Below, piece after piece: positions 46,921-57,798 of a stretch of 57,816 nt of DNA. The notes under the pieces are model-generated. The model saw only the letters and a program-made list of their open reading frames with translations. It was not told the DNA's origin and made no database searches. A program made the position numbers and the translations under genes. Source of the stretch: Salipaludibacillus daqingensis (GTDB lineage Bacteria; Bacillota; Bacilli; Bacillales; Salisediminibacteriaceae); contig NZ_JARZHF010000015.1 in assembly GCF_029891575.1 (NCBI RefSeq), positions 1 to 57,816 of the forward strand, read 5' to 3'. Position 1 is the first letter of the stretch; every line of letters starts with the position of its first letter.

Positions 46921-47190
46921 GACAAAAAACTCCCGTCCTCAATAGTTGGGACGAGAGTTTACCTCACGTGGTACCACCCAGATTTATTAACAGCATACCA
47001 TTATTGCTGTTAACCTCTAAGATGCTAGAAATAACAAATGATTTCTAAGCAAGCTGTGTAACGAACAGCAACGTGCTTCTCTTACTCTATAGGCTCGAAA
47101 AGCAGTTCCTCCTAAGACCATATTCAATAGATCTGCTTATGCTAGCTTTCAGCTCATACTAGCTCTCTGTTAATAAGCGTTGCTATTTAC
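46921..47190 (-). promoter_or_regulatory. T-box riboswitch, methionine specifier (AUG)
   Basis: On the minus strand the leader ends with the T-box GGGTGGTACCACG (46967-46979), followed by a terminator (arms at 46948-46959 and 46928-46938, then TTTTTTGTC). Upstream, stem I is recognisable (AGAGAGCTAGTATGAGCTGAAAG) and its specifier context is GAAT-ATG-G with ATG at 47119-47121, the methionine codon followed by a purine. Uncharged tRNA-Met should favour the antiterminator and metG expression. Confidence 0.95.
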
Positions 47191-47251
47191 TCATCTTATC
47201 ATCGGAAACAGTTGTCATAATTGTCATATTAATAATGACCGTATTATTCAA

Positions 47252-56012: not shown

Positions 56013-56958
56013 ATGTCAAAAACAAAGAGAAACGACTCTTGTCCTTGTGGCAGTGGGAAGAAATACTAGAACTGTTGTGGAAAAAACAATGTAGTCGCCT
56101 TTCCAGCTCATGTAGTAGAAAGCGAATTGCAAATCATTCAAGAAGAAGTAGTCGAATTTGCTATGCAACACTATGAGGAACAACTTTCGCAGTTTTCTGC
56201 TGAAGCTTTACATACACTGTCAGATATTGAAGAGCTGGATTCATTACTGACTTTTTATTCGATCCTTTGGGCAATATTCAACGAACCTATCGTCCAAAAC
56301 GAGAAAACCATTTATGATGATTATTTGCGACGCAAAGGTCCAAAAATCAAACGACCACAAACACGAACTATTGTCACTAACTGGCAACTACTCAAACCTG
56401 CCCTATTCAAAATAATGGCGAAAAATTCAAAGACGCATTGGAAGAAGACAAAGGTCACTTCTGGGGTATTGTATCTACACGTCCATTCATGCGAGCAAAA
56501 GAAGCTTACGGAATTGCTTTGAAAGCGAGTGGACAACAACAAAAAGCCATTGATCAATTTGAACAGATGCTTGACCTTAACCCTAACGATAATCAAGGGA
56601 TTCGTTACGTTCTATGCGACGCTTATTTAGAAGAGAAGAATGAAAAAGCTGCAAACCGCCTGTTAGAACGTTACAAGGAGGACAATGGTGCTCATTTTCA
56701 ATACAATCGAGTCCTCGCTGAATATTTAAACAACGGTCAATCTAAGCGATTAAAGGAAAAGATAACGGATGCTCTTGAGGAAAACGCTCATGTGCCTGAT
56801 TATTTACTTAAAAGAAAAAAATATCAAACAACATCCCTAATCATTATAGACCAGGTAATGAAACAGAAGCGGAAATATACGTATTAGAAACGCAACATAT
56901 ATGGGACATTCATAAACCGCTTTTAAAGTTATTAGGAGAGTATGACATGAAAAAATGA
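56013..56958 (+). pseudogene. decayed SEC-C/TPR protein gene
   Basis: GGAG precedes the ATG at 56013, which reads MSKTKRNDSCPCGSGKKY, stop, NCCG: the zinc motif CPCGSGKKYxNCCG is broken by TAG at 56067-56069, where AAG (lysine) is expected. The frame then continues to about 56400, shifts by -1 somewhere in 56380-56430 into a TPR-like part (FWGIVSTRPFMRAKEAYGIA, LDLNPNDNQGIRYVL), and shifts by -1 again at a run of seven A (56815-56821) into HYRPGNETEAEIYVL and a stop at 56958. Three lesions make a functional product unlikely. A terminator follows. Confidence 0.85.
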
Positions 56959-57030: not shown

Positions 57031-57147
57031 CTTGCAAAAGGATACATTGATAAATAAGGTTGATGTGGATTGCTTAATGACTGTGGGTTCCATAATGTTG
57101 GTCGTTAAGGCTAAGCAATAGTTGCAGTTCCTGGGCGCCAGTGATCC

Positions 57148-57563
57148 TAAATGTGTAAATGGTGCGTTTATTGGGCACTAATCGTTTGCTTTAGTGACCC
57201 TAAATTCCTTTTTATTGCTTTTTAGGGGCATTAGTTGCTTGCTCTAGTGACCATAAATACGTAAATGGCGCATTTATAGGGCACTAATCGTTTGCTTTAG
57301 TGACCCTAAATTCCTTTTTATTGCTTTTTAGGGGCATTAGTTGCTTGCTTTAGTGACCATAAATACGTAAATGACGCATTTATAGGGCACTAATCGTTTG
57401 CTTTAGTGACCACTTTTTCCAAAATAGCTCTTCATAGGTCGCTAGTTGACCTCGCTTGTGACCGTGTTTCATCAAAATCAGCTCACGTCGGTCACAAGAC
57501 GCCCTCTCTTGTGACCGTCTTTTACCAAATTCAACTCGCTTTGGTCACAAGATGCCCTGTTAT
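57148..57563. repeat. array of 53-bp imperfect repeats forming seven hairpins
   Basis: Units of 53 bp start at 57148, 57201, 57254, 57307 and 57360; two alternating types give a 106-bp higher period. Diverged units continue to about 57563. GTGACC recurs at the end of each unit. Each GTGACC arm pairs with the next unit's left arm, giving hairpins at about 57191-57234, 57244-57286, 57297-57340, 57350-57393, 57404-57444, 57455-57498 and 57508-57551, with centres 52.5-53.5 bp apart. Not coding. It lies between the pseudogene terminator and the rRNA terminator, where transcription converges. Confidence 0.85.
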
Positions 57564-57645
57564 TGCTTGTTCACACATCCAATAACTCGCCGCCAAACTT
57601 CAAATCCAACAAACCCAAAATCAACATCCTCAAACCCAAACACAA

Positions 57646-57675
57646 AAAAAGACACCCTCATAAATGAGAATGTCT
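57646..57675 (-). terminator. rRNA operon terminator
   Basis: AAGACATTCTCAT pairs with ATGAGGGTGTCTT (13 bp, two G-T pairs, 2-nt loop) and is followed by TTTTTG on the minus strand, directly after the 5S gene. Confidence 0.9.
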
Positions 57676-57680
57676 TAAAT

Positions 57681-57798
<118 letters not shown>

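Follow-up and report, generated by a model that had tools for sequence, protein, structure and literature searches.

Arrays of phased, tandemly repeated hairpins accompany genes for a NERD-domain protein with such regularity that we have very little doubt in calling the gene-array pair established. One such array lies in the 57,816-nucleotide stretch of Salipaludibacillus daqingensis DNA analysed here (the window, which is contig C15 of its genome), and our reading, to which we assign a probability of about one half, is that it represents one of the dispersed copies of a chromosomal repeat system with two components, which resembles REP/RAYT and operates with an unrelated nuclease.

Results

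A phased hairpin array ends beside an rRNA operon

The window array consists of eight 53-bp units on the plus strand (57138-57553; Table 1), situated between plus-strand ORFs and a minus-strand rRNA operon. TRF reports tandem periods of 53 and 106 over 57140-57411 and of 53 over 57450-57558, the doubled period being due to the alternation of two unit types (A and B) in the left part of the array, which is followed by one C-type and two D-type units. The initial annotation had described seven hairpins at 53-bp steps, and these are real, and their noted centres fit; an eighth, degenerate unit at 57138 had been left out. A covariance model built from 73 distinct units (R1) recovers six of the seven anchored units and misses the weak one at 57403.

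Folded as RNA or as DNA, the plus strand of the array reaches z-scores of -5.05 and -4.38, respectively, and the minus strand folded as RNA reaches -5.02, with none of 100 shuffles being as stable in any of these comparisons. The arrays match no Rfam family at gathering thresholds, and protein coding by the array can be ruled out because 53 bp is not divisible by three. Elsewhere in the window, two overlapping plus-strand ORFs in different frames (56127-56887; 131 and 149 amino acids, the second with TPR matches) are possibly one gene with a frameshift, and a T-box leader is found at 46944-47211 on the minus strand (Rfam RF00230, 95.9 bits).

Table 1. Hairpin units of the window array and the adjoining end of the rRNA operon.
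Feature	Position	Strand	Basis
Degenerate first hairpin unit, A-like	57138-57183	+	Read by eye; one 53-bp step before the 57191 unit
Hairpin unit, B type (CCCTAAA inner stem)	57191-57236	+	Anchor; R1 E 3.0e-8
Hairpin unit, A type	57244-57289	+	Anchor; R1 E 1.4e-8
Hairpin unit, B type	57297-57342	+	Anchor; R1 E 3.0e-8
Hairpin unit, A type	57350-57395	+	Anchor; R1 E 3.4e-9
Hairpin unit, C type, weak stem	57403-57448	+	Anchor; absent from R1 matches
Hairpin unit, D type (the type flanking the NERD gene on contig C6)	57455-57500	+	Anchor; R1 E 1.2e-12
Hairpin unit, D type, last of the array	57508-57553	+	Anchor; R1 E 1.7e-13
Probable rRNA-operon intrinsic terminator, next to the end of the array	57644-57676	-	Inverted repeat and T run, by eye
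5S rRNA gene, opposed to the array direction	57681-57797	-	Rfam RF00001, 92.3 bits

The partner gene encodes a NERD-domain protein

On contig C6 of the same genome, two array blocks enclose a 311-codon gene (L035:5141-6076, minus strand), and its homologue in genome G147 (L068) stops 26 bases before the first unit that the model finds there. The proteins belong to Pfam family PF08378 (NERD), with scores of 74.0 bits for P0001 and 53.9 bits for the L068 protein against a cut-off of 22.1. The partner protein has about 305 residues, with the NERD domain and a zinc ribbon of four cysteines followed by a short C-terminal part; residues D77, K92, E45 and Q120 and the four cysteines are invariant among 53 aligned proteins, in an alignment (A3) that omits eight loci with stops and two with a shortened start (L084 and L105). 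NERD domains are annotated as nuclease-related and have few known roles, and by likeness to PD-(D/E)XK enzymes we take D77, K92 and E45 to be catalytic. A profile search of solved structures returned two weak zinc-ribbon matches (E 0.054 and 0.75).

Homologues are present in 107 of 150 relatives at E<=1e-10, with 61 genomes having a best E of about 1e-35 or lower by hand count and single genomes carrying up to 12 matches. In a phylum-wide draw of 398 genomes, four matched at E<=1e-25, all of them from the same order and one being the window's own. Searches of 72,556 plasmid records (E 1e-15) and 50,697 phage records (E 1e-10) returned no homologue, and viral contigs were likewise without relatives. 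In-frame stops interrupt eight of the 63 near NERD loci, which fits genes that decay repeatedly. Weak matches link the protein to the NERD parts of defence proteins (PADLOC MkoA, E 3e-6; PDC-M16A, 0.001; PglW, 0.003) and to the NCBIfam family MAD6 (6e-4, below its cut-off); such matches would allow a defence role.

Arrays of nearly constant period mostly lie downstream of the gene

To quantify the association, TRF was applied on either side of 70 NERD loci, 63 of which hold near homologues and 61 of these at least 200 nt of downstream sequence (L087 and L103 were dropped as short). The 63 near loci come from a longer set, 30 chosen by the tool as the best per genome and 33 chosen by us before their flanks were seen, and several share genomes. 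An array of the 51-53-bp class, or of a multiple of it, begins within 400 nt downstream in 55 of the 61, a count in which L088, L106 and others were scored on TRF period alone. Four loci have the array only upstream (L130, L132, L133 and L135) and in two it was not found (L111 and L134), the downstream repeats of L111 having periods of 83 and 267 bp. The 51-53-bp class appears in four of 60 upstream flanks of near homologues, and a single locus (L069) has arrays upstream as well as downstream, both pointing the same way. Around the control gene galU, by contrast, such an array was detected at one of 30 loci, namely that of the window genome itself; the other repeats at these control loci were a 65-bp-period array (L213) and short 18/30-bp repeats (L202).

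The initial annotation had placed the pitch close to five helical turns, and this is borne out beyond the window: among 56 consensus units of NERD-linked arrays the period is 51 bp in 13, 52 bp in 40 and 53 bp in three. Because these arrays are mostly unlike in sequence, a single chance duplication is an improbable source of the pitch. Below 60% protein identity, the average likeness between units from different loci barely exceeds that between one unit and the reverse complement of another. Inverted repeats exceed those of shuffled sequences in 34 of the 56 consensus units at p<=0.05 and in 16 at p<=0.01, with 22 units having no significant inverted repeat. The commonest plan has arms of 8-12 bp separated by gaps of two lengths, one of about 7-11 and the other of about 21-26; several arrays differ from it, some without a palindrome. 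Across 46 loci, similarity between proteins and similarity between repeats were uncorrelated (Mantel rho 0.06; 147 of 1000 permutations as high).

The position of the arrays raises the idea that their transcripts, made behind the NERD gene, serve its protein as a structured RNA partner. For the two loci at which R1 informs on strand (L069/L035 and L068), the array does lie on the gene's strand and directly downstream, and the window array folds as RNA with z-scores near -5 on both strands. A pitch of nearly whole DNA turns has no reason in RNA, however, the loops are without guide-like variability, and dispersed arrays stand in no fixed relation to neighbouring genes, which together make an RNA partner quite improbable in our view.

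Dispersed copies share an orientation relative to GC skew

The genome that holds the window measures 4.58 Mb in 27 contigs. DNA searches place the array at five contig ends (C15, C16, C7, C14 and C17) and at further places on C3, C6 and C8, and our hand-made list has about 24 head-to-tail array loci, five of them at rRNA-operon ends. A 5S gene is present on the contig at four of the five array-bearing ends, in each case opposed to the array; C17 breaks off inside the shared flank just before the 5S position, and an rRNA operon presumably lies beside its array as well. R1 scored 150 candidates in the window genome and 41 per relative under stricter filters, so that its counts are minimum numbers and little weight can be put on absence in relatives; at least 149 matches were obtained in the window genome (149 of the 150 candidates scored), those on any one contig all falling on a single strand. 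A 15-base core of the D-type unit has 92 copies in the window genome and none in seven congeners, counting exact matches only, and an exact scan of genome contigs for a 17-base pattern returned eight stretches with one match each in taxa that are unrelated by title. Using one NERD array as query, we found 42 matches in the complete genome G147 and 24 in G117. Array copies also occur dispersed and decayed without a NERD gene. In congeners the genes next to galU are not the same, and the comparison yielded no clean empty site.

We also considered whether rRNA 3' ends attract arrays throughout the genus and rejected this, as only two loci of congener G002, each with a 21/41/62-bp array beside the 5S gene (L159 and L177), were found among 30 5S loci, 27 of them from congeners. 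Six further 5S loci have repeats of other periods (20, 91 or 235-238 bp), with the 235-238-bp repeats lying at or beside congener 5S genes (L169, L176 (G005), L181 (G006) and L167 (G001)).

By GC skew, dispersed arrays are directed against replication: the array strand is poorer in G than in C in all 15 of the 20-kb regions examined in the window genome, 14 of which are informative given that the C8 region has a skew of -0.001 at 50 kb; with the majority coding strand used instead of GC skew, 11 of 15 regions are antiparallel. In G147, arrays resembling that of one NERD gene oppose the local leading strand, on the evidence of GC skew, in 13 of 17 cases and in all 11 with E<1e-25, including the NERD-adjacent array, in a count that omits one 35-base match and the antisense matches at the same palindromes; the four parallel arrays are weaker matches and may be of another array type. 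NERD genes themselves are antiparallel in 47 of 63 loci by short-flank skew. Neighbouring genes run with the array at six of 17 loci upstream and six of 18 downstream, and thus orientation follows GC skew rather than the neighbouring genes. Copies are also found close to the gene: four of 22 other loci lie within 32 kb of the C6 NERD gene (P 2e-4, for an interval picked after looking), and G147 has arrays 13 and 36 kb from its NERD gene.

The setting of the window array between convergent transcription units, together with its phased palindromes, had led the initial annotation to propose a place of topological stress, and BIME-like gyrase or HU sites that relieve it would suit that setting. 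The other copies do not support this. At 18 non-rRNA loci with mechanically called ORFs, the neighbours are convergent in four, both directed against the array in seven, divergent in four, both directed with it in two and unclear in one, the examined flank of each of three 5S genes (on C1, C4 and C9) is free of arrays, and the units do not alternate in orientation, so we regard stress-relieving sites as extremely unlikely.

Some features of the arrays are those of ordinary tandem repeats born by slippage, which might simply hitchhike beside NERD genes: units run head to tail, copy numbers differ between arrays, units decay at array ends and the protein-repeat coevolution test is negative. A plain decaying minisatellite had been the fallback of the initial annotation, and it leaves the gene linkage (55/61 against 1/30 for galU) without an explanation. 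The narrow period and the pairing in unlike sequences argue against slippage too, as does the orientation bias, and we hold this explanation to be very improbable.

Stems pair beyond expectation, with limited compensatory change

We examined pairing in 73 distinct units from 11 blocks of the window genome, where 87.1% of stem cells are paired compared to 80.6 in shuffles (sd 0.7). Their covariation score of 0.188 exceeds that of shuffled alignments (0.095) and was reached in none of 500, with slid registers giving at most 0.091; a second set, 29 units drawn from five genomes, scores 0.284 against 0.122, a value again reached in 0 of 500, with slid registers at most 0.075. In neither set are covarying pairs or pair types more numerous than in shuffles, a register slid by +3 equals the true register in doubly changed cells of the 73 units (33 vs 32), and RNAalifold unaided predicts no pairs on these 73.

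Changes on both sides occur at pairs 1, 3, 5 and 10 among the 73 units and at pairs 1 and 3 among the 29. In the latter, pair 3 is A-T, T-A or G-C in all 28 readable cells and pair 1 is C-G, T-A or T-G in all 29 units. In the window genome the 5' arm GTGACC is nearly fixed, the 3' arm drifts and most stem variation is uncompensated. Pairing is absent at pair 7 in 40 of 72 cells there and in 22 of 29 across the five genomes. Most GTGACC-type units of the five genomes keep an A·G mismatch at pair 7 with the remaining stem paired, and this kept mismatch would give an otherwise symmetric unit a direction. Arrays of like plan with a 52-bp pitch are found in G117, G147, G094 and G110, which belong to other families. 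The earlier proposal that the stems covary therefore holds in part: there is some compensatory change, and the score, like the paired share in the window genome, lies beyond all 500 shuffles, but most variation in the window genome is uncompensated, pair 7 is mostly mismatched and the numbers of covarying pairs stay within the range of shuffles.

A second NERD subfamily has repeats of other periods, mostly near whole turns

At four of seven remote NERD loci (L119-L122) the gene is bracketed by repeats of 21, 42, 61-63 or 84 bp; L123 has 82- and 267-bp repeats upstream only, L124 has only a 2.5-copy 21-bp repeat upstream, and TRF found no flank repeats at L125. The window genome itself has four NERD genes: the one on C6 with 53-bp arrays, one on C5 (C5:258883, L264) with 20-bp repeats on both sides, one on C3 (C3:142318, L265) for which TRF reports 21-bp repeats on a single side, and one on C11 with none. 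The second subfamily, seen at L119-L123, L264 and L265, goes with direct repeats of about 21 bp and multiples of it, mostly flanking the gene on both sides. Like the 52-bp pitch, most of these periods come close to a whole number of helical turns.

Whole-turn periods would equally fit binding to double-stranded DNA. We rank as the main rival to a REP/RAYT-like mechanism, albeit a rather unlikely one, that the arrays are double-stranded binding sites of the NERD protein with a host role in defence, repair or nucleoid order, and that dispersal is secondary. A five-turn pitch would set the sites on one face of the helix and let the protein assemble along the array, in keeping with a period of 51-53 bp retained across 56 unlike arrays, with the remote periods of 21, 42, 61-63 and 82-84 bp and with the weak NERD matches to MkoA, PDC-M16A, PglW and MAD6. 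What binding sites alone leave unexplained is the orientation against replication, the clustering near the gene and the dispersed or decayed copies without a NERD gene.

Discussion

Our analysis places the window array closest, in its working principle, to the REP/RAYT systems (TnpA-REP, REPtron), with which it shares extragenic palindromes, an adjoining nuclease-type gene, many dispersed copies, complementary stem changes and several types per genome (PMC6006769). Many dispersed extragenic palindromes are indeed what we find (at least 149 R1 matches in the window genome, besides those in G147 and G117). The partner here, however, is a NERD protein and not a Y1 HUH transposase (PF01797), and the arrays are mostly one-sided and head to tail at a 52-bp pitch, as opposed to two inverted REPs. 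RAYTs and REPs are reported to coevolve (PMC2817692), whereas the corresponding test for NERD arrays is negative (rho 0.06, 46 loci). We also considered a RAYT partner in the window genome, and four PF01797 matches exist, all on C6 (324279, 185189 and 341290-341555), which has more arrays than any other contig; TRF detected no 53-bp array in the flanks examined. Membership in REP/RAYT thus fails on the enzyme and the flanking arrangement, and the likeness in working principle is not lowered thereby.

Other known systems are less close. BIMEs are likewise composite palindromic repeats between genes, with REPs in alternating orientation (PMC2817692), but R1 matches here share one strand per contig, and the earlier suggestion of a BIME/REP element must be abandoned in its strict sense given that the units run head to tail and the linked gene is NERD and not RAYT. 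CRISPR loci also set a regular repeat array beside a nuclease gene, and a figure legend of PMC10910872 that deals with putative CRISPR auxiliary genes mentions NERD; in our arrays, however, the entire 53-bp unit repeats, loops included, and there are no unique spacers. MIRU-like repeats and minisatellites have tandem units of 40-100 bp between genes, and differ in that the arrays described here keep their period, and often their pairing, across unlike sequences. We know of no dedicated nuclease gene for repeats of these two kinds. An element of plasmid, phage or proviral nature finds no homologues in the plasmid, phage and viral contig records searched.

We favor a REP/RAYT-like mechanism because it covers dispersal, clustering near the gene, orientation relative to replication, decay and pairing. 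Under this mechanism, the NERD protein would recognise its own repeat and act on the repeat hairpin while that strand is single-stranded at the replication fork; its action would multiply the units and reinsert them, partly close to its own gene, and the copies at rRNA ends may spread further through recombination between operons. The linkage, the narrow period, the frequent inverted repeats, the dispersal and the GC-skew orientation are observations, and it is from these that we infer mobilisation. Against mobilisation stand the negative protein-repeat coevolution test, the four parallel matches in G147, the lower agreement in the window genome when the coding strand replaces GC skew (11 of 15), the 22 of 56 units without a significant inverted repeat, the fit of whole-turn periods to double-strand binding, and the absence of homologues from the plasmid, phage and viral records searched.

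More broadly, and at slightly less than even odds, the arrays may represent an undescribed class of mobile repeats in which a NERD nuclease multiplies its own phased hairpins via single-stranded DNA at the fork, a class common in one order whose subfamilies each keep their own count of whole turns (about 52 bp and about 21 bp). A search of a library of open-access papers returned no description of NERD genes with repeats, and the arrays fit none of the repeat families tested; the gene-array pair is apparently undescribed.

A phased hairpin array behind the gene would hand many NERD proteins a readily testable candidate substrate. It would also provide a natural series of repeats that keep their period more than their sequence, and hence a clean test of what helical phasing is for. 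If the mechanism that we favor is correct, this would suggest more than one origin of REP/RAYT-like repeat systems, by way of enzymes that are not related to one another.
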